Assembly: GCF_014646015.1 (NCBI RefSeq)
Contig: NZ_BMMQ01000006.1
Location: forward strand, 1-64,000
Reading direction: 5' to 3'
DNA: 64,000 nt
Source of the DNA: Microbacterium nanhaiense
Lineage (GTDB): Bacteria; Actinomycetota; Actinomycetes; Actinomycetales; Microbacteriaceae
Shown here piece after piece: positions 1 through 52,214 of the stretch. Each line of letters opens with the position of its first letter. Positions within the stretch are counted from its first letter, which is position 1. The position numbers and the translations under genes are program-made. Under the pieces are notes generated by a model, which was given only the letters and a program-made list of their open reading frames with translations, was not told the origin of the DNA and did no database searches.

Positions 1-1798
1 CAACCGTGCCAACCTCGACACCGTCAACCGTGATCGTCACCGTCTCGAGCGGAGCAAAACCCTCACCCGAGATCGTCGTCGAACCACCCTGCTCCACCGA
101 TCCCGGCGTCACCAGAATCGACGTGTCATACACGGGTGCTTCGTCCAGCGCACGCACGGTCGACGATGCCAGGGAAACGTTTGCGACGTTCAGCGCCGGG
201 AGTAGCGAGATGCCCAGCGCATTCACCGTGAACGACTCGTCGCCCAGCAGGCCAAGCTCTGCCGATTCAAAATTTGTCGGTTGCTCGTTGATCGTCACCT
301 GCACAACCTGGTTGAGCGCGGCGAACACCGGTGAGAGGCCATTCAGCAGGCTCGCGAGAGGCCCAGAGATAACCTCTTCAAGATTGTCGAGCAGCGGCAC
401 CACAGTCAGCCCGACCGTGTCGCCGACAGCATTGAGCACACCGTTCAGGACGGGAGTCAGAAGCGCATTGATCAGCCCGTCGAGTTCGATACCGAGCGCC
501 CCCAGCAGAGCACCGAGAAGGCCACCCTGCTCTACCTCAATGTTGATGAGGTCCGTATCGAAGTCTTCAGCGGTCCCGAGCAGCTGGCCGAGCGGCGCGT
601 TGATCGAGACGTCTGCCGCGACCGACGCGACGAGCGGAACTGACAGGTTAACGCCGAGTTCAATGTCCACCTGAAGCGAATTAATGATGTTCTTCACCGG
701 GTCGACGACATCCGTGACGACGTTTCCGAGAAGATCTGCCGCCGCATTCGTGATCAGCGTCAGGGTTGTGGCGTTCAGCAGCTGAGTGTTCGCGCCGAGA
801 CCATTCAGGTCGCCGCTTTCGACGAGCTTCGACAGGTCGATCGTGATGTCGCCAGCACCGAGATCGAGCGAGAGGAGCCCGTTGTCATCGCCAATGGTGC
901 TGGTTAGCAGCTCATCGACCTCAGCCAACGCAGCATCGAGGCCGTTGACGCCAACGGAGCCGGATTGGACCGTGGCGGCGAGAAGCCCCAGGTTGATGTC
1001 GAGGTCGATGTCGTTGAGCGCCCCGACAAGAGTTCCTTCAGAGCCAAGTGCCTCGTTCAGCGCCAAGCCGAGATTCGTCGATGCACCACCGAGAGCCGTC
1101 GTCAAATCGCCTGCAAGCGGGCTGGAGACGGCGATCTCAGCACCCGCAACCACGTAGTCCGAGGTCACCACGCCGGCGTTCTCTTCCGCCACCGACGCAA
1201 GGGCGCCCAAATCGAGCGATAGCCCATCTACGATCGCGTCCGAGACCCCCTCGAGATTCAGCTGACGCAGCAGGTCGATGAGGTCGACTGAAGCGAAATC
1301 GGTGCTTCCCTCGTTGATGCCATCAACATTGATCGCGCCGTCCTCAGTGACCACGCCTGCCGCGGCCTTCGACGATGTCGCCGTCGGCGAGTGGCCGAAC
1401 GAGTTCACGAGCCCCGCGTTGCCAAGATCGAGAAGCCCGTTCTCCTGATCCGGAGTCTTTAGCAGCGGCAGGTTCACCGTCGGCAGGTTGACGTCAAGAA
1501 GCCCGAGAGCGCCGATGTTCAGCGGGTTGAAGTTTGCACCCTCATCGCTTGGGTTGCCCGACGTGGTGACGCCGACGTCCAATAGCTGCTCGTCAGTCAA
1601 ACCCCCGATGACCTCGTTGAGAAGGTCAGACGCGATCATCTGTGCAAGCGACTCGGAGTCATCGGTTTCGGCAGCGGTCGCGGAGGTTGCGCCTGCACCA
1701 ACGAAGGCTGCGGTGATCGCAGTGGCAGTGACAACACCCCCGACCCGCTTTGCTGTGAGCCAGGGCTTCACCCGTGGCCGCTGCTTTTCAGCACGCAT
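1..1798 (-). CDS. Choice-of-anchor G family surface protein (5' part)
   Basis: An open frame of 599 codons runs without a stop from ATG at 1798 to the left edge, so the C-terminus is missing. A clear SD (GAGGGGA on the minus strand, 1804-1810) lies 5 nt before the ATG. The N-terminus is basic (MRAEKQRPRVKPW), followed by a hydrophobic stretch and an Ala-rich cleavage site (ATAAETD), so it is a secreted protein. The body is rich in Asn, Leu, Val, Gly and Asp, with repeated NxxGLxxLDL-type segments (for example NIGALGLLDVNLP), typical of the actinobacterial choice-of-anchor G proteins. Near the window edge begins an Ig/IPT-like stretch (VTPGSVEQGGSTTISGEGF), as in repeats that precede a wall anchor. 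Function is unknown; a wall or outer-surface structural role is inferred. Short + strand frames opposite it are shadows. Confidence 0.8.
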   Translation of the reverse strand, partial: MRAEKQRPRVKPWLTAKRVGGVVTATAITAAFVGAGATSATAAETDDSESLAQMIASDLLNEVIGGLTDEQLLDVGVTTSGNPSDEGANFNPLNIGALGLLDVNLPTVNLPLLKTPDQENGLLDLGNAGLVNSFGHSPTATSSKAAAGVVTEDGAINVDGINEGSTDFASVDLIDLLRQLNLEGVSDAIVDGLSLDLGALASVAEENAGVVTSDYVVAGAEIAVSSPLAGDLTTALGGASTNLGLALNEALGSEGTLVGALNDIDLDINLGLLAATVQSGSVGVNGLDAALAEVDELLTSTIGDDNGLLSLDLGAGDITIDLSKLVESGDLNGLGANTQLLNATTLTLITNAAADLLGNVVTDVVDPVKNIINSLQVDIELGVNLSVPLVASVAADVSINAPLGQLLGTAEDFDTDLINIEVEQGGLLGALLGALGIELDGLINALLTPVLNGVLNAVGDTVGLTVVPLLDNLEEVISGPLASLLNGLSPVFAALNQVVQVTINEQPTNFESAELGLLGDESFTVNALGISLLPALNVANVSLASSTVRALDEAPVYDTSILVTPGSVEQGGSTTISGEGFAPLETVTITVDGVEVGTV

Positions 1799-16564: not shown

Positions 16565-18643
16565 TTAGCGCGTCAGCTCTTCGATGCGCTCGTCACCGGG
16601 CTGCACCTCGTGGAACGGCGCGTCGATCTCGGCGCGGTCGAGCAGCTCGCTCATGCGGCGACGGCGGTTGCGCGGGATCAGCGTGACGACGCGACCCGAA
16701 CGACCGGCGCGGCCCGTGCGGCCGGCGCGGTGCATGTACGTCTTGTACTCGTCCGGCGCATCCGCCTGCACGACCAGGTCGACGTCGTCGACGTGGATGC
16801 CGCGGGCCGCGACGTCGGTCGCGACGAGCACCTGGATGTTGCCCTTCGAGAAGCGCTCGATGTTGCGCGTGCGCTTGGCCTGGTTCAGGTCGCCGTGCAG
16901 CGCGATCGCGCGCAGACCGTTGTCTTCGAACTGCTCGACCAGCTGGTCGGCGAAGGCACGGGTGCGGCTGAAGATGATCGTGCGGCCGTCGCGGTCGGCG
17001 AGCTGCTCGAGCACATCGCGCTTCGAACGCTGGTCGACGACGAACACCTGGTGGTCGATCGTGCCCGAGTCCTGGTCCTCGCCGGCGACCTCGTAGACCT
17101 GCGGGTCCTTGAGGAACTCGTCGACGAGCGCCGAGACCTCGCGGTCGAGGGTCGCCGAGAACAGCAGCTTCTGGCCGTCGGCCTTCGTCAGGCGCAGGAT
17201 CTCCTGCACCGGCTCGAGGAAGCCGAGCTCGCACATGTGGTCGGCCTCATCGAGGACGGCGATCTGGATCTGGCTCAGGTCGAGCTTGCCCTGACGCTCG
17301 AGGTCCTGGATACGCCCCGGCGTGCCGATGACGATGTCGACGCCCTTCTTGAGCGCACCCACCTGCTTGCCCTGGGGCACGCCACCGTAGACCTGGGTCG
17401 TGAACAGGCCGACGCTGCGCGCGAGCAGCTGCACCGTGCGGTCGATCTGCAGCGCGAGCTCGCGCGTCGGGGCGAGGATCAGTGCCTGCGGCGAGCGGCC
17501 GTAGGCGCGCTCCTTGCCCTTGCGGGCGCGGAGCAGCGCCTCCACGAGCGGCGCGCCGAACGCGATCGTCTTACCGGATCCGGTGCGACCGCGACCCAGA
17601 ACGTCCTTGCCCTCGATGATCGGGCCGGCCGTGGCCGCCTGGATCGGGAAGGGCTTGTCGGCGCCCATGCCCGCGAGGGCACGGACGATGTTGTCGCCGA
17701 GGCCGAGGTCGGCGAAGGTCTGGCCCTCTACCTCTTCGGCGGCGACAGCCTCCGACTCGAGACGCTCGTGCACGACGTCGATGCGCTCCTCGTGAGCGGC
17801 GGTGCGCTGGGGGGCCGCGTCGCGGCGCTCCTGCCAGGCGCGCTCGCCGGCGTTCTGCTCGCGCGGGGCGCGCTCCTCGCGGTTGTCCTCGCGCTTGTCG
17901 AAGCGGTTGTCGAAGCGGTTGTCGTCGCGCTTCTCGAAGCGGTTGTCGTCGCGCTTGTCGAAGCGACGCTCGCCGCGGTCCTCGAAGCGGCGCGGGCCGC
18001 GGTTGTCGTCGAAACGACGGGGCGCGCGGTCGTCGCGGTTGAAGCCGCCACGGTTGTCGCGGTCGAACGGGCGACGCTCGCCGCGGTTGTCGTCAAAACG
18101 ACGGGGCGCGCGGTCATCGCGGTTGAAGCCACCGCGGTTGCCGTCGAAACGACGCTCGCCACGGTCCTCGCGGTTGAATCCACCACGGTTGTCGCGGGAG
18201 AAACCGCCACGGTTGTCGCGGTCGCCGCGGAAACCACCACGCTCGCCGTCGAAACGGCGCTCGCCACGATCCTCGCGGTTGAATCCACCACGGTTGTCGC
18301 GGGAGAAACCGCCACGGTTGTCGCGGTCGCCGCGGAAACCACCGCGGTCGTCGCGGGTGTATCCGCCGCGCTCGCTGCGGTCGAATCCGCCCCGGTTGTC
18401 GCGACCGGATCCACCGCGGTTGTCGCGGTCGAACGAGCGGCCGCCGCGCTCGTCACGGTTGAACGGGCGACGCTCGCCACGGTCGTCACGACCGGTTCCG
18501 GCGCGGTTGAAACCGCCCTCGCGGGATCCGCCCTGACGCTGGTCGCGGTCATCGCGGTTCCAGCGGGGCTTGCGGTCTGCGGCGAACTTGGGGTCGAAGT
18601 TCCTGGCGGGACGACCGCCAGCGGGCTTCTTGTTTTTAGGCAT
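16565..18643 (-). CDS. DEAD-box RNA helicase with N-terminal RG-rich tail
   Basis: A 692-residue ATP-dependent RNA helicase. The core occupies about residues 300-690: Q-motif (FADLGLGDNIVRALAGMG..PFPIQ), motif I GRGRTGSGKT, Ia PTRELALQ, GTPGR, II DEAD (VLDEADHM), III SAT, V VATDVAARGIHVDDV, VI HRAGRTGRAG. Residues ~20-290 are low complexity, made of repeats such as RDNRGGFNRDDR and RGERRFDG, encoded by tandem DNA repeats at about 17880-18560. Many bacterial DEAD-box proteins carry RG-rich tails at the C-terminus; here the tail is N-terminal and very long. Such tails bind RNA and can drive condensates (known for the type, inferred here). Likely role: ribosome or mRNA remodelling in the cold or under stress. 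Start ATG 18643 has an AAGG SD about 12 nt away. Confidence 0.93.
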   Translation of the reverse strand: MPKNKKPAGGRPARNFDPKFAADRKPRWNRDDRDQRQGGSREGGFNRAGTGRDDRGERRPFNRDERGGRSFDRDNRGGSGRDNRGGFDRSERGGYTRDDRGGFRGDRDNRGGFSRDNRGGFNREDRGERRFDGERGGFRGDRDNRGGFSRDNRGGFNREDRGERRFDGNRGGFNRDDRAPRRFDDNRGERRPFDRDNRGGFNRDDRAPRRFDDNRGPRRFEDRGERRFDKRDDNRFEKRDDNRFDNRFDKREDNREERAPREQNAGERAWQERRDAAPQRTAAHEERIDVVHERLESEAVAAEEVEGQTFADLGLGDNIVRALAGMGADKPFPIQAATAGPIIEGKDVLGRGRTGSGKTIAFGAPLVEALLRARKGKERAYGRSPQALILAPTRELALQIDRTVQLLARSVGLFTTQVYGGVPQGKQVGALKKGVDIVIGTPGRIQDLERQGKLDLSQIQIAVLDEADHMCELGFLEPVQEILRLTKADGQKLLFSATLDREVSALVDEFLKDPQVYEVAGEDQDSGTIDHQVFVVDQRSKRDVLEQLADRDGRTIIFSRTRAFADQLVEQFEDNGLRAIALHGDLNQAKRTRNIERFSKGNIQVLVATDVAARGIHVDDVDLVVQADAPDEYKTYMHRAGRTGRAGRSGRVVTLIPRNRRRRMSELLDRAEIDAPFHEVQPGDERIEELTR
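17880..18560 (-). repeat. Degenerate tandem repeats coding the RG/DNRGG tail
   Basis: The DNA reads as repeated GGTTGTCGCGGTCG- and CCGCCACGGTTG-type units. Two blocks near 18140-18230 and 18240-18340 share long near-identical stretches, so unit number probably varies by slippage or unequal exchange. The antisense strand yields a long spurious Val/Ala-rich frame. Confidence 0.75.
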
Positions 18644-18814
18644 GCGAAACTAACGCACCTTCCGTAGGTGTTATGCGGCCACGACAGGACACATTCACAC
18701 CCACGTACACAACGTGGCATCCCTTAGCCGACCTACCTACGTTAGCGGTATGCCCTGGGAAACCCCGGGGTAGATGCCATTTTGGGTTCCTAGGGGCCGC
18801 CCGCCGGCTCGCGT
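18644..18814. promoter_or_regulatory. Upstream region of the DEAD-box gene with inverted repeat
   Basis: This region should hold the helicase promoter and 5' leader (minus strand). CCACGT (18701-18706) and ACGTGG (18712-18717) form a 17-bp inverted repeat with a 5-nt spacer, a possible operator. No gene is visible. Confidence 0.35.
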
Positions 18815-19290
18815 CTCGCGGAGATGACCCAGATTTTCGGTGCGAATCGACGGGTTCCTCCGAATGTGGTGGCCAGCCCCGCGGATCCGGGCCGGCGCCC
18901 CTGGCGCCCCCTGGCGCCCCGCTCGGCGCCCCGAAGTGCGGAGATGGCCCCGATCTTCGTCGTGATCCCAAGATGTCCTCCGGACTTGGGGGCCAGCTCC
19001 GCGGATCCGGACCGGCGCTGAGCGCGTGAACCCCAGCCGCGGAAGTGACTCCGAATTGCGGAGTCGTTCACCTTAATCCTCCGCAGTTAGGGAGCATCTC
19101 CGCGTATCCGGTCCGACGGCCGGCGCGTGGACTGGACAAACGCGTAGGCCTAATCGGGCGGGTGTCCACGAATTTCGGAGAAATCCGCGAGTCCATGTCA
19201 ACCTTGGGCGCGCGAACCCGAAGTGCGGACATGGCCCCGTGCTGCGGAGAGGGGCCGCAGTTCCTTCCGTAGTACGGGGCCATATCCGGG
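18815..19290. repeat. Hairpin repeat array, first block
   Basis: About five degenerate units share the layout left arm (GCGGAGATGACCCxGA..), short spacer, inverted right arm (TCCGxACTTxGGGGCCAxCT), then CCGCGGATCCGGxCCxGCGC. Good examples start near 18818, 18939, 19040 and 19220. The left and right arms are inverted copies, so each unit can fold into a hairpin. The block also contains a short run of CTGGCGCCCC copies at about 18900-18930. It fills the gap between the DEAD-box gene start and the DUF559 gene end. Confidence 0.75.
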
Positions 19291-19298
19291 ATTCGGGG

Positions 19299-20126: not shown

Positions 20127-20249
20127 GCCCTCGATCGTGCGCGACAGCGCCGCTGTCCCGCTCGGCGGATCCGCGAAATGTGAACAAAACAGGAGCTTCC
20201 CGCCCTGTGCACAGCTCGCCGCCCGGATCCCGCCGCGTTCGGCGCGGAT

Positions 20250-21060
20250 CCAAGGTGCGGAAGTGACCTCGATTGGCGGGGAGCACTGGTTTCCCTCCCC
20301 GCACTACTGGGCCACATCCGCGGATCAGGCCCAGCGCACCGCGCGAGAACTCGAACTACGGAGAAAACCCCGAACTGCGGAACCACCCGGGCTCACCCTC
20401 CGCGAGAAGTGCCCACCTCCGCGGATCCGGACCAGCGCACCTCGCGAACACCCGAACTACGGAGAAAACCCCCAACTACGGATCCAGCCGAGCTGCCTCT
20501 CCGCACGACGGGACCGCTTCCGCAGATCCGGCCCAGCGCGCCACGCGCAACGCCGAACTGCGGGAATGACCCCGACCTACGGAACCACCCCGGGCTTTCA
20601 CTCCGCGCTACGGGACCACCTCCGCAGATCCAGCCCAGCGCATTGCACGGCAGCACTTAGCTGCGGAGATAGACCCGAACTGCGGGTTCAACCGAGCTCC
20701 CTCTCCGCACTACGCGTGCGCATCCGCAGATCGAGACCAACGCATACCGCGAGAATCCAAACTTCGGACATGACCCCCAACTACGGATCCAGACAGGCGC
20801 CTTCTCAGCACTACTGGACCACCTCCGCGGATCCGGCCCAGCGCGCCACGCGCAACCCCGAGCTGCGGAGATGACCCCGAACTACGGAACCACCCGGGCT
20901 CCCTCTCCGCGCTACGGGCCACCTCCGCACATCGAGCCCAGCGCACAGCGCGAGAACCGAAACGACGGAAATGGCCCCGAACTGCGGAAGCATCCCCTGA
21001 GGAGCTCCGCAGTTCGGGGCCATTTCCGCAGTGCGGGCCAGGCCGCCCCGCGGATCCGGC
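20250..21060. repeat. Hairpin repeat array, eight ~101-bp units
   Basis: Eight direct units with a 100-103-bp period, with equivalent GCGG or ACGG positions at about 20260, 20361, 20462, 20563, 20666, 20767, 20868 and 20968. Each unit contains a left arm like CGGAGATGACCCCGAACTAC, a ~15-20-nt spacer, an inverted right arm like CTCCGCGCTACGGGCCACCT, and a tail CCGCGGATCCGGCCCAGCGC followed by CGCGxGAA. So every unit is a hairpin repeated in tandem. There are no unique spacers between identical repeats, so this is not CRISPR. The array fills the space between the DUF559 gene start and the RND gene end. Confidence 0.9.
20966..21028 (-). terminator. Perfect 23-bp hairpin at the array edge, likely RND terminator
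   Basis: The last array unit has arms 20966-20988 and 21006-21028 that are perfectly complementary over 23 bp (core ATGGCCCCGAACTGCGGA), with a 17-nt loop. It lies 33 bp past the stop of the RND transporter gene and is the best paired unit of the family. A terminator or 3'-end protection role is inferred; there is no T-run. Confidence 0.55.
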
Positions 21061-41532: not shown

Positions 41533-41569
41533 GCGTACAAGGCTAGGCGGGTCCACTGACAAACGAAGC

Positions 41570-43474
41570 TCAGGCTTGCATAACGAGACGCGAGCGCGCG
41601 ATATCGAGCCAGAACTCGGCGAGACGCCGACGAAGATCGGTCTCCTCCGGGCGGATCTGCCCCACCGAGAACCACTTGTTGTCATTCGAATTGATACGCG
41701 AATGATCGAGGTCCTGAAACTTCTCCCGAAGCTTGTCGAGCCAGTATCCGGGATGGGGCTCGTTCGCCCATCGCGGCTCAAAGGTGACGTGGAAGAACCG
41801 CTGCCTGATCACGACCATGCCGATGCGCCGACCGTTCGACTCGATGACCCAATCCTGCGGAGACGACGAGCTCGCGCCCACCCGGATGTCGTCGCTATAC
41901 GTCTCGAGAACCCGCACGAACTCCTCCGGGCCGTGGAGCGCGGCATCGAGCGCGCGCCATCCCCGCTGCTCCATGTGGGCCCGGCGCGCCGCGGCGCCAT
42001 ACTTCTTTCCGCGGGTTCCGGTTTGCGGTTGAGATGAGGAACCACCCGAGCTCGTCGTCATCGCTTGCGTCATCGCGGCGGTGAATGTCGCCCGGTCGAA
42101 CGCGCCGCCAACGAGGAACTGATCCCCGATGACCTTGCCGAGCGCCGCGAAGCGCGTCGCACCGCGCTCGATGCCGAGGCCCGCGTACTCGGCTTCGTTG
42201 CGCTGGGCGTCCTCTGCGGAGATCTCGCCCGTGCCGCCGCCCTCCTCATCCGGCATGATGTAGCTCTGCACGAGTTCGTGATCTTCGATGGCCTCCGTGT
42301 CGACGATCGCGGCGTAGGCATCGGGGTACGCGGTCTGCAAGCAGAGCACCGCGAAGAGCTGCAGATCACCGACGCTGTGATCGCCCGTGTCGCTCTTGGA
42401 GATATCCGCGATCATTCGGAGGAGCGAGAAGGTATTGATCAGGCGCTTGATCGATCGCGGATTGCTCCCGACCGAGGCGGCGACCAACTGTCCGAACACC
42501 CTCTTCTCTTCTGCGCCGCGCAGCTCGATCCCGATCTGCGCGATCAAGGTTTCGATGAATTCATCGACCCTGTACGCGCTGACCGGCAGCTGAAACGGAA
42601 CCTGGATGATCTTGTCGAAGAACGCACGCGCCTTCGCTTCGTCTCCTTTGTCTGTGAGGTCGTACTTCTGCATCACGCCGCGCTTGACGACCTCGAAGTC
42701 GATGGCCAGCACGAACACGCAATGCGGTACATCCAGGAAAAGCTTGAGGGCTTCCATGAGCTCGACGGCTTTGCGCGGCTCGAGGCGGTCGAGATCGTCG
42801 ATGAAGACAACGACTCGTCCCTTAGGTGTGTGGTCCACCCCGGGCGCGGCGCTCACCAATTCATCGACCGCGGCGGCGAACTTCTCGCGGACATTCACCA
42901 ACGTCGCCGCGGCATCCGCTCCATCCGCGGAGTGCGCGCTGTGGAACGCGCGCGTAACCTCGTCGAGCACGCCGCCGAGCGCGCTTCCTCCCGCAGCGGT
43001 CAGTCCCGCACGGAGCAGCCCGATACCCGTCGCCGAGGCAATGGGAGCGACCGATTTCAGGAACTCCGCTCGCTTTGCACTCTTCGACGCGGAGTTTGCG
43101 AGGAGCAGATGCGCCCCGAGGTTTTCGAGCATGCTCCCGACAAGCTTCTCGCCCATGTCGAACTGCGAATACTGCCAGGTGTTGAACCGGATCGTGTAGA
43201 TCGGTTCGCCCCGGACGGCATCGGGCTTCTCCTCGGGAGGATCCGAAAGGCGAAAGTGAGCGTGCGGTGCAAGCTCACTCTCCACGAGGAGCATCGTGTT
43301 TGTCTTGCCCGTACCCCAGTCTCCTTGGACAGCTATCGTCATCGGCGTCTGACAATGCGTGATGAAACGCGCCAGGCCCGCCACGAACGGCTTCGCGTTG
43401 AGAAGATCGTGTCCGCGCGGGGTATCGATGACCCCCGCGAACACAGGTGCCTTGTCGACTTTTCGGGTGCCCAT
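41570..43474 (-). CDS. KAP-family P-loop NTPase
   Basis: A 634-residue NTPase with the KAP pattern: Walker A GDWGTGKTNTM (about residues 50-60), Walker B VVVFIDDLDRL (about 220), then SRALKLFLDVP-like LMEALKLFLDVPHCVFVLAI. A hydrophobic helical segment (SVAPIASATGIGLLRAGLTA) lies between them, as the TM insert of KAP proteins does. The last ~110 residues (GPEEFVRVLETYSDDIRVGA onward) form an additional domain that I do not recognise. KAP proteins include phage-exclusion PifA and signalling NTPases. ATG 43474. Confidence 0.85.
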   Translation of the reverse strand: MGTRKVDKAPVFAGVIDTPRGHDLLNAKPFVAGLARFITHCQTPMTIAVQGDWGTGKTNTMLLVESELAPHAHFRLSDPPEEKPDAVRGEPIYTIRFNTWQYSQFDMGEKLVGSMLENLGAHLLLANSASKSAKRAEFLKSVAPIASATGIGLLRAGLTAAGGSALGGVLDEVTRAFHSAHSADGADAAATLVNVREKFAAAVDELVSAAPGVDHTPKGRVVVFIDDLDRLEPRKAVELMEALKLFLDVPHCVFVLAIDFEVVKRGVMQKYDLTDKGDEAKARAFFDKIIQVPFQLPVSAYRVDEFIETLIAQIGIELRGAEEKRVFGQLVAASVGSNPRSIKRLINTFSLLRMIADISKSDTGDHSVGDLQLFAVLCLQTAYPDAYAAIVDTEAIEDHELVQSYIMPDEEGGGTGEISAEDAQRNEAEYAGLGIERGATRFAALGKVIGDQFLVGGAFDRATFTAAMTQAMTTSSGGSSSQPQTGTRGKKYGAAARRAHMEQRGWRALDAALHGPEEFVRVLETYSDDIRVGASSSSPQDWVIESNGRRIGMVVIRQRFFHVTFEPRWANEPHPGYWLDKLREKFQDLDHSRINSNDNKWFSVGQIRPEETDLRRRLAEFWLDIARSRLVMQA

Positions 43475-43600
43475 AGGCGCCACCCTAGTGGTATTCCGAC
43501 CCGGCGCGAGAGGCATCGGCCAGGGCAGGCCGCCGGCGACGTCGACGAACGACGCACCGATCGGGCCCTCGCGCCCCCGCGGGAGCGGGAGAATGGGCGC

Positions 43601-43645
43601 ATGAAGACCTCTCCGGACGACGTCACGCCCACGACGGGCGCGTAG
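43601..43645 (+). CDS. 14-codon upstream ORF before the MFS exporter
   Basis: ATG 43601 to TAG 43642-43644 encodes MKTSPDDVTPTTGA and has GGGAG upstream. It ends 4 bp before the exporter ATG. It could be a regulatory leader peptide, or chance. Confidence 0.25.
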   Translation: MKTSPDDVTPTTGA

Positions 43646-43648
43646 ACG

Positions 43649-45013
43649 ATGCCCTCGCCGACGCGGATCCTCTGGGTCGCGATCCTCGCCTCGTTCGTGT
43701 CGTTCCTCGACGGCACGATCGTCAACGTCGCCCTGCCCGCGATCGACCGGGAGCTCGGCGGCGGACTCGCGACGCAGCAGTGGGTCGTCGACGGGTATCT
43801 CGTGACGCTCGGCGCCCTGATGCTCGTCGCGGGATCCGTCAGCGACTCCTTCGGGCGCGCGCTCGTACTGCGCATCGGCCTCGTCGGATTCGGCGTCGCC
43901 TCGGTGGCGATCGCCATCGCGCCGGATCCCCTGATCCTCATCGCCGCGCGCCTCCTGCAGGGCGCCGCCGGCGCCTTCCTCGTCCCGAGTTCACTCGCCC
44001 TCATCACCTCTGCGTTCGACGAGCCGGCGAGGGCGAAGGCCATCGGCACGTGGACGTCGTTCACGACGGGTGCGATGATCGCGGGACCGCTGATCGGTGG
44101 CGCGCTCGTCGACCTCGCGAGCTGGCGCCTCGCCTTCCTGATCAACGTCCTCCCGATCGCCGCGACGCTCTGGCTCGCGCGCGGGATCCGGGATCCGCAA
44201 CGCCGCCCCGACGCGCGGATCGACGCGCTCGGCGCGACAATGTGCGTGCTCGGCCTCGGCGGCGTCGTATTTGCGCTCATCGAGCAGCCGCGACGCGGCT
44301 GGGCGGATCCGGCGATCCTCGCGGCCGCGATCGGCGGGCTCGCGCTGTTCGCGCTGTTCCTCCTGCGGCAGCGCACGTCCCGCTCACCGATCCTCCCCCT
44401 CGGGCTGTTCCGGGTAAGGAACTTCTGGACGGGCAACCTCGCGACGGCATTCGTCTATGCGGCGCTCTCGCTCAACGGCTTCGTGCTCGCGATCTACCTG
44501 CAGCAGGGCGCGGGGCTTTCGGCGACGCTCGCGGGGCTCGCGAGCCTGCCGGTGACGATCCTCATGATCCTGTTCAGTTCGCGCGCCGGCGAGCTGGCCG
44601 GGAAATGGGGCGCGCGCTGGTTCATGACGGCGGGCCCCCTGCTCATGGCGGCCGGCTCGCTGATCCTGCTGCTCGTCGCCGACGACTTCGACTACTGGTG
44701 GCAGGTCCTGCCCGGCATGGTCGTCTTCGGCCTCGGACTGACGACGACCGTCTCGCCGCTCACGTCGACGATCCTCGGCGCGATCGACGCCGAGCGCAGC
44801 GGCATCGCGAGCGCCGTCAACAACGCCGTCTCACGCGTGGCCGGTCTCATCGCCGTCGCGATGATCGGCACCGCGGTCGGCGGGTTGCTCGATCTCGCGG
44901 GCTTCCACCGCGCGTGCATCATCGTCGCGGCGCTCCTCGCGGCGGGCGGCGTCGTCTCGTGGGCGGGCATCCGGGATCGGCGCGCGCCCGCAGGCGAGAG
45001 AATGGATCCATGA
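43649..45013 (+). CDS. DHA2-type MFS drug exporter
   Basis: A 454-residue permease. TM1 holds SFLDGTIVNVALPAIDREL, the DHA2 (EmrB/QacA) signature; motif A is SDSFGRALVLRIGLVG and motif C-like GALVDLASWRLAFLINV follows. About 14 hydrophobic segments. It would export drugs or other small molecules by proton antiport; the substrate is unknown. ATG 43649. Its stop overlaps the YchJ start as ATGA, so the two are coupled. Confidence 0.9.
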   Translation: MPSPTRILWVAILASFVSFLDGTIVNVALPAIDRELGGGLATQQWVVDGYLVTLGALMLVAGSVSDSFGRALVLRIGLVGFGVASVAIAIAPDPLILIAARLLQGAAGAFLVPSSLALITSAFDEPARAKAIGTWTSFTTGAMIAGPLIGGALVDLASWRLAFLINVLPIAATLWLARGIRDPQRRPDARIDALGATMCVLGLGGVVFALIEQPRRGWADPAILAAAIGGLALFALFLLRQRTSRSPILPLGLFRVRNFWTGNLATAFVYAALSLNGFVLAIYLQQGAGLSATLAGLASLPVTILMILFSSRAGELAGKWGARWFMTAGPLLMAAGSLILLLVADDFDYWWQVLPGMVVFGLGLTTTVSPLTSTILGAIDAERSGIASAVNNAVSRVAGLIAVAMIGTAVGGLLDLAGFHRACIIVAALLAAGGVVSWAGIRDRRAPAGERMDP

Positions 45014-45363: not shown

Positions 45364-45560
45364 ACCGCAGTTGCGGCGATAAGCCGAACCTGCGGATCCA
45401 CACGCGCAAGTGCTCCACAATTGCGGGTCGTTCCCGCGGGGTGGGCGCCGGTCCGCGCGTGCGACCCGCTGAGCCGCAACTTCGGAGATAAGCCGCAACT
45501 GCGGATCCAGATCCGCGTGCACTCCGCAATTGCGGGTCATCTCCGCGGGAGCGAGCAGGC
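45364..45560. repeat. Hairpin repeat pair between convergent genes
   Basis: Two units of the family fill the gap between the YchJ stop (45363) and the SseB-like stop (45561). Unit 1 has left arm CGCAGTTGCGGCGATAAGCC and right arm ACAATTGCGGGTCGTTCCCG. Unit 2 has left arm CAACTTCGGAGATAAGCCGC, inner CAACTGCGGATCCA, and right arm TCCGCAATTGCGGGTCATCT. The core letters match the family at 20250-21060 but the middle is diverged (GATAAGCCG in place of GATGACCCCG). Position between stops suggests bidirectional termination. Confidence 0.75.
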
Positions 45561-52036: not shown

Positions 52037-52214
52037 GCCGGCCCCTCACTGCGGAGCTGACCCGGTTCTGCGGACGAAAACCACCATCGGATCCGCAGAA
52101 CTGGGCCAACTCCGCAGATGCAGAGCGCCGACCCGCTCCTGCGGAGAAGAACCCCTACTGCGGACCAGAACCACCACCGGATCCGCAAGTCGGGGCCAGC
52201 TCCGCAGAAGCGGC
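52037..52214. repeat. Hairpin repeat pair between thioesterase and jetC
   Basis: Two units fill the gap between the convergent thioesterase and jetC stops. Unit 1: CTGCGGAGCTGACCCGGTTC(TGCGGA) with inverted right arm (TCCGCAG)AACTGGGCCAACTCCGC, 23 of 26 positions paired. Unit 2: CTGCGGAGAAGAACCCCTAC(TGCGGA) with right arm CAAGTCGGGGCCAGCTCCGC. Both share GAxCCGGATCCGCA-type loops. It lies where a jetD gene would be expected. Confidence 0.8.

Follow-up and report, generated by a model that had tools for sequence, protein, structure and literature searches.

Tandem 81-bp dyads beside an AbiEi-like/DUF559 nuclease gene in Microbacterium nanhaiense: a candidate repeat-plus-enzyme system

What is the tandem array of palindromic repeats found in a 64 000-nt stretch of the Microbacterium nanhaiense genome (the window), and does any gene belong to it? 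We characterized the repeat unit, the gene next to it and the relatives of both in other genomes.

The array and its dyad unit

The array consists of eight direct tandem units at 20249–21037 (Table 1), each of 80–82 nt (~81 bp), with starts 100–103 bp apart (successive spacings 101, 101, 101, 103, 101, 101 and 100). Unit starts are those of matches to R1, a covariance model made from 32 elements of the window genome (alignment A1); the elements at 18930, 19031, 19217 and 20249 are rows of A1 and hence part of the R1 training set. On the window, TRF reported 20292–20953 with period 101 and 6.5 copies. The eight-unit array at a 100–103-bp period, described in an earlier note on this DNA, was confirmed by TRF and R1 matches together. 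Its count holds for the array; the window, however, has 16 such elements (eight in the array, four at 18810–19297 and pairs at 45365–45554 and 52043–52213), and the note had missed the link to a gene, the four copies beyond that gene and the solo copies.

The unit has the layout box(13)-6-box(13)-17-box'(13)-6-box'(13), with two direct and two inverted boxes at offsets 0, 19, 49 and 68 and few indels. A linker of ~20 nt separates array units; the 'CCGCGGATCCGGCCCAGCGC' tail is box 4' plus linker. Sequence (CGG/CCG cores) and spacing are invariant across units. An exact double-box pattern search of the window genome gave no match. Rfam at gathering threshold, a check named in the earlier note, yielded a tRNA and nothing else in the window; no dyad matched at gathering score. 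The last array unit lies 23 nt from the stop end (21061) of an RND transporter gene. On the other side, the DEAD-box helicase gene (16565–18643) encodes a long repeated N-terminal region rich in Arg, Gly, Asp and Asn, which gives rise to many TRF rows (17837–18490).

Table 1. Dyads and nuclease gene of the window
Feature	Coordinates	Strand	Evidence
Degenerate dyad, 3' side of nuclease gene	18810–18890		R1 48.9 bits
Dyad, 3' side of nuclease gene	18930–19010		R1 68.3 bits; A1 row
Dyad, 3' side of nuclease gene	19031–19111		R1 68.0 bits; A1 row
Dyad at nuclease-gene stop codon, strong hairpin	19217–19297		R1 69.8 bits; A1 row; RNA fold z −8.6
AbiEi-like N-terminal DNA-binding domain plus DUF559 (Vsr/EDxHD-like) nuclease, 275 aa	19299–20126	−	Pfam, AF2, Foldseek
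Array unit 1, 5' side of nuclease gene	20249–20329		R1 57.2 bits; A1 row
Array unit 2, poor hairpin	20350–20430		R1 64.6 bits; z −0.7
Array unit 3	20451–20531		R1 71.3 bits
Array unit 4	20552–20633		R1 66.8 bits
Array unit 5	20655–20735		R1 61.3 bits
Array unit 6, poor hairpin	20756–20836		R1 65.3 bits; z −1.3
Array unit 7	20857–20936		R1 72.2 bits
Array unit 8, near-perfect hairpin	20957–21037		R1 81.5 bits; fold −62 kcal/mol, z −11.6
Dyad remote from nuclease gene	45365–45445		R1 39.4 bits
Dyad, 6 nt from stop codon	45474–45554		R1 70.6 bits
Dyad between two convergent genes	52043–52123		R1 74.9 bits; fold z −7.7
Dyad, 1 nt from stop codon	52133–52213		R1 70.6 bits

Pairing and folding of the array units

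Sliding the partner drops pairing in the array units to 27–39%; the dyad is therefore real. Of the cells in the eight units, 66.1% are paired (shuffles, 66.9%); changes on both sides affect 4 pairs versus 3.6 in shuffles (261/500). These counts contradict the covariation of arms that the earlier note had claimed within the array. All 32 elements of the window genome taken together gave weak covariation (41 cells versus 35.5, 60/500). What the array units conserve is the sequence and spacing of the boxes, not compensatory pairing.

Six RNA folds were computed for five elements. Strong hairpins were obtained for 20957 on both strands, for 19217 and for 52043; the inner units 20350 and 20756 fold no better than shuffles allow. 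The description of each unit as an inverted repeat stands as to the dyad, with unit 20957–21037 a near-perfect hairpin, but two inner units barely fold. Selection for folding, also put forward in the earlier note, finds no support in the pair counts and the two inner folds. A reading of the array as free-standing structured RNA was dropped, being unsupported by the pair counts (32 and 8 elements) and the six folds.

The gene between the repeats

A gene on the minus strand stands between the eight-unit array and the four-unit cluster (Table 1). In its 275-aa protein, Pfam detected DUF559 (8.8e-7) and AbiEi_3_N (8.8e-4, below cut-off) and PADLOC detected AbiEi (6.1e-5); NCBIfam and PHROGs gave no match. 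A profile of 68 relatives compared by sequence with PDB matched 3hrl (2.1e-5) and 3r3p (E 0.059). The AlphaFold (AF2) model (pLDDT 91.6, pTM 0.83) was matched by Foldseek to AbiEi (6y8q, E 2.5e-6) and to the catalytic domain of I-Bth0305I (3r3p, E 1.1e-3, TM 0.74 on target); Foldseek also lists long, poor matches to mitoribosomal proteins. All 81 sequences compared have E179, Q215, D217 and H221, and 80 have D205; E179, D205, D217 and H221 probably correspond to the EDxHD active-site motif. The dN/dS ratio against the M. sorbitolivorans gene is 0.13 (274 codons, dS 0.81).

The neighbours of the gene are the RND transporter gene on the array side and the DEAD helicase gene on the far side. Pfam scans of six window proteins (the nuclease and five neighbours) found no partner toxin, methylase, AbiEii or Cas family. 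Linkers in the array are repeated and unique spacers are absent; the earlier note was right that this is not CRISPR. A divergent relative (L077) has a sub-cut-off Pfam match to the MTES_1575 domain, a related domain described as having the Vsr REase fold in PMC3710099.

Gene–repeat pairing across loci

R1 elements occur one per side of distant homologues of the nuclease gene in two other species (G014 and G011) and on each side of a closer homologue in a third (G008). Of 149 genomes of the genus searched with the protein, 140 contain relatives. Among the matches listed, 30 loci (one per genome, window included) have dyads beside the gene in most cases, as do most of 17 further copies, which include second copies in the same genomes. 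By eye, one side falls short of 20 pairs at some loci, L105, L110, L113, L125, L128 and L132 among them.

The main test was made on the best 80 of 227 relatives from named genomes, ranked by protein similarity and not by flanks. By record title, these loci come from Microbacterium (69), Agromyces (4), Frigoribacterium (1), 'Planococcus' (1) and five less precisely named sources; some genomes were already among the 30 above, and the set includes a few near-duplicate loci. The locus titled Planococcus (L172) carries a Microbacterium-like copy of the unit, and its label may be wrong. The best stem exceeded the 95th percentile of controls (310 windows 1–2 kb from the gene) in 53/80 upstream flanks, 56/80 downstream flanks and 40/80 loci on both sides. 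When arms were compared across the two flanks of a single gene, identity averaged 23.1/32 versus 14.3/32 between loci (0/20 000 permutations; 64 of the 80 loci, 16 having <20 pairs on a side). A stricter test of whole-flank sharing was passed by only 40 of 79 loci, one of the 80 being too short. By arm identity, a gene has the same box on its two flanks, and different genes have different boxes.

In three of the 80 loci (L164, L166 and L189), the nuclease gene has an in-frame stop, which may be a sequencing error; L166 and L189 retain dyads of at least 22 pairs. A single R1 match in a genome outside the family of the window genome (G030:C1:351676-351756, L078; E 2.2e-5) lies in a predicted coding frame and may be due to chance.

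Pairing within dyads was compared across loci as well. In 44 downstream dyads, found solely through left-arm similarity to the upstream dyad, the left arm pairs with its own right arm at 22.4/32 positions and with right arms of other loci at 10.8 (0/20 000 permutations); dyad symmetry is therefore kept while boxes diverge. Across different genes and species, the arms covary and the symmetry is constrained.

Dispersed copies

An R1 search of the window genome (G000) at E 0.1 or better yielded at least 111 strand matches, which amount to 57 positions; one of these (C1:14302) was assigned to a second family. The window family has at least 56 elements at 28 places, 12 of the elements lying beside the gene. 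By gene context, 29 places were divided into 7 convergent, 14 tandem, 1 divergent and 7 inside an over-long frame of the simple ORF caller; many places are 1–60 bp from a gene end. The elements are unevenly distributed, with 4 on C1–C3 (1.57 Mb) versus 52 on the rest of the genome, which may reflect chromosome position.

The same kind of dispersal was seen for other boxes. Two other genomes, each of one contig, carry 9 own-type elements at 7 places (G008; none in four other genomes) and 15 at 11 places (G067; none in three other genomes).

A 7.1-kb stretch of the window genome (G000:C6:171007-178117, L274) is bracketed by two direct dyads and holds genes for a GH32-like enzyme, a transporter and LacI (named by eye). 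Its counterpart in M. sorbitolivorans (L262, G164:C3:524576) has one dyad and different gene content; the difference suggests exchange across dyads.

Covariation of protein and box

Box similarity was compared with the similarity of individual protein segments while controlling for the remainder of the protein; such Mantel-type tests leave some shared ancestry. The data were the 69 of 80 loci with a dyad of at least 22 pairs (11 left out) plus the window, whose arms were entered by hand. Partial correlation with the box was highest for residues 88–97 (r 0.268, 0/1999) and 31–50 (0.202, 0/1999), followed by 12–30 (0.128, 13/1999), 115–164 (0.068, 174/1999) and the nuclease core 175–244 (0.018, 722/1999). 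With 60 non-redundant loci the values were 0.268 (0/1999) for 88–97, 0.189 (1/1999) for 31–50 and 0.026 (589/1999) for the core. A clean split is contradicted by residues 170–270, which given 5–60 keep a weak correlation (0.115, 10/999), and by the 14-residue window 223–236, which reaches 0.164. By these sequence comparisons, the box follows the DNA-binding part more closely than it follows the nuclease core.

The loop motif ASRL coincides with six or more ACAGG in the flanks (9/9 loci versus 0/71 others), partly within one orthologous group. A rule relating Cys or Arg at residue 42 to GGGC or GGGA boxes was rejected as not significant (5/6 versus 2/7, p 0.10).

Inheritance and copy-number change

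Two loci were taken to have a flanking gene in common when genes within 2.5 kb matched at ≥45% identity. This holds for 100/103 pairs of nuclease genes with ≥70% identity and for 129/2281 pairs with 50–60%. Since close homologues nearly always share a flanking gene, the enzyme is mostly inherited vertically at fixed loci; mobility of the gene at close range was ruled out by this conserved context. M. sorbitolivorans, M. gubbeenense and Ca. M. stercoravium all retain the DEAD helicase and the RND transporter as neighbours. For the two sides of the gene, the dyad counts are 8 and 4 in the window; M. sorbitolivorans has 6 and 9, M. gubbeenense 2 and 2, and Ca. M. stercoravium 2 and 1.

The M. sorbitolivorans genome gave at least 150 R1 strand matches, and many of its dyads occupy sites with an orthologous dyad site in the window genome. 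Copy numbers at orthologous sites were recounted in full on individual sequence pieces. The counts (window genome/M. sorbitolivorans) are 1/6 at L047/L264 and L067/L273, 1/5 at L052/L269 and L059/L261, 2/7 at 52043/L257, 2/3 at L065/L272, 2/1 at L053/L270, 4/4 at L057/L258, 2/2 at 45365/L256 and 1/1 at L056/L259. Given that many sites are common to the two species, some at equal copy number, new dispersal is slow or old.

At another site, M. sorbitolivorans has five dyads (L256 1929–2443) where the window has no dyad and a ~1.9-kb gene (41570–43516); L256 1918–2478 compared with window 41566–43649 is not a clean empty site. A search at the RND gene covered 24 loci (L226–L249), none with a DEAD or DUF559 neighbour. 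No clean empty dyad site was found in the M. sorbitolivorans comparison or at the RND locus.

Proposed mechanism and alternatives

We lean towards the view that the array belongs to a repeat-plus-enzyme system of REPIN/RAYT-like logic, with enzyme and repeat of unrelated parts. Comparison of genomes shows gene–repeat pairing, box specificity per gene, covariation of box and protein, dispersal, vertical inheritance and copy-number difference; physical binding of the dyads by the AbiEi-DUF559 protein is what we infer in addition. The protein would bind the 81-bp dyads as a dimer or tetramer, either of which suits the dyad symmetry, and its N-terminal region (residues about 31–50 and 88–97) would read the 13-bp boxes. 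The predicted nuclease domain, for whose kind dimerisation on long targets has been described, would cut or nick in or near the dyad, and repair of the cut could copy, tandemly expand and homogenise dyads around the gene and at solo sites. The gene, fixed in place and vertically inherited, would by analogy encode a domesticated enzyme of REP type, served by non-autonomous repeats that form a population of their own.

The strong hairpins and the positions of dyads near gene ends would also be expected if the system served regulation only, with an AbiEi-type autorepressor, upstream dyads as operators, post-stop dyads as bidirectional terminators or mRNA 3' ends, and the nuclease domain otherwise employed. 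AbiEi does bind inverted repeats in its own promoter (PMC3985639), very strong hairpins were seen in three of five folded elements (20957, 19217 and 52043), and the contexts of the 29 places, with 7 unclear and many within 60 bp of a gene end, fit such roles. Gene-specific boxes that flank the gene on either side and recur at dozens of remote places do not, however; both folded inner units are not hairpins, eight tandem units far exceed the need of a terminator or operator, and terminator-like sites near the gene number 3 versus 1.4 expected in a scan that covers U-tract terminators only. We consider regulation alone rather unlikely. An RNA or hairpin-repeat family selected for folding and independent of protein, the view of the earlier note, shares the strong folding of some units and the maintenance of dyad pairing between loci; it is hardly credible given the lack of covariation in the array, the pairing of repeats with a nuclease gene and the covariation of boxes with the DNA-binding part of its protein.

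The nuclease could instead survey DNA for host defence, with chromosomal dyads that sequester, regulate or license it and invading DNA being cut. AbiEi and Vsr-like domains occur in conflict systems (PMC3710099), PADLOC reports the AbiEi match, and fast diversification of boxes resembles an arms race. The six Pfam-scanned window proteins include no partner toxin or methylase, though, and vertical inheritance, a stable locus and purifying selection would sooner be expected of a domesticated gene; we regard defence or self-marking as improbable. Still less probable is an active homing element, whose nuclease would cut allelic or ectopic sites that lack the gene, which would then be copied in via homologous dyads. 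The resemblance of the catalytic domain to the homing endonuclease I-Bth0305I, in a family that binds long targets of near 60 bp as a dimer according to PMC3943268, speaks for it. Against it stand the common flanking gene kept by pairs at least 70% identical, dyads outside the gene that are complete rather than split, and the lack of an empty site at the one locus examined (RND; 24 loci without DEAD or DUF559 neighbour).

Relation to known systems

The repeat-plus-enzyme reading invites comparison with REP/REPIN-RAYT systems ('REPtrons'), which likewise have palindromic intergenic repeats, an enzyme gene bracketed by its own repeats and dispersed non-autonomous copies. As described for RAYTs in PMC8049555, the enzyme is inherited vertically. 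The bracketed gene differs: by Pfam and fold search it is AbiEi plus DUF559, unlike RAYT, an HUH/Y1 tyrosine transposase. REPs have GTAG beside a 20–40 bp palindrome, whereas the dyads here are ~81 bp with doubled boxes at 19-30-19; no conserved GTAG was seen by eye in the 32 aligned elements or in the 8 nt to the left and 14 nt to the right of the elements inspected. The box sequence, unlike that of REP/REPIN-RAYT, differs per gene. CGTC-tagged REPs and MITEs are also short palindromic repeats between genes, and the CGTC REPs are without a dedicated enzyme according to PMC3733652; the dyads here have a paired enzyme gene.

With AbiE type IV toxin-antitoxin systems, the protein shares the N-terminal AbiEi fold with winged helix (6y8q) and a presumed binding to inverted sites, as AbiEi has in PMC3985639. 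It differs in its C-terminal nuclease fold, in sites on both flanks and genome-wide, and in that no AbiEii is found among the Pfam-scanned window neighbours. With the EDxHD homing endonuclease I-Bth0305I and the Vsr family it shares the catalytic fold (3r3p) and the acidic and His residues; I-Bth0305I binds its long target as a dimer (PMC3943268). The gene here is free-standing at a fixed locus with complete dyads on both sides, unlike I-Bth0305I. By its parts the system appears to fit no family tested, and its logic, by analogy, resembles REPIN/RAYT.

Titles and abstract openings in the literature, with few subscription journals or preprints among them, mention no repeats tied to DUF559 or AbiEi-nuclease genes and hold no published description of the array, in agreement with the suggestion in the earlier note that it may be undescribed; the repeat system is apparently undescribed in bacteria. 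It provides a candidate biological role for DUF559, a 'protein of unknown function' family, and suggests that an enzyme without relation to known transposases can run populations of REP-like repeats. Natural enzyme–target pairs in many variants mean that a DNA-recognition code could be read. The presence of dyads near stop codons and the change in copy number between close species become testable as well.

Other DUF559 genes and their repeats

The window genome has five DUF559 genes at E 1e-3 or better, and only one of them is near window-family elements. The doubt that this cast on the DUF559 link was overturned by flanks in other species, which have the same layout, and by the own repeats of the other four genes. 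All five have own repeats on both sides: the window gene, a second gene on C12, whose family has ~31 elements at ~12 places, and three remote genes (L122, L123 and L124). In these three, flank-to-flank sharing is 25, 32 and 27 of 32, above the threshold of 24 that marks the 99th percentile for mismatched flanks; mismatched flanks reach 25 at most, hence L122 is marginal. L122, L123 and L124 are each flanked on either side by short repeats, inverted and tandem, that have other shapes, and in L123 a 32-nt stretch is identical on both flanks, inverted.

Whether these cases make up a new class of repeat system, in which actinobacterial (perhaps wider) DUF559-type nucleases each keep private recognition repeats with a readable AbiEi-loop code, several coexisting per genome, is in our judgement evenly balanced. 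Other genera of the order provided 20 loci, less L275 for its short flank and L278 and L291, whose ORFs could not be used; six of the remaining 17, which include one from the same family and five from one genome, exceed the 99th percentile of mismatched flanks. Gene–repeat pairing may thus reach beyond this DUF559 subfamily, with other repeat shapes. Among the DUF559 genes of other genera, L282, L285, L289 and others have flanks that share repeats of up to 32/32 nt.
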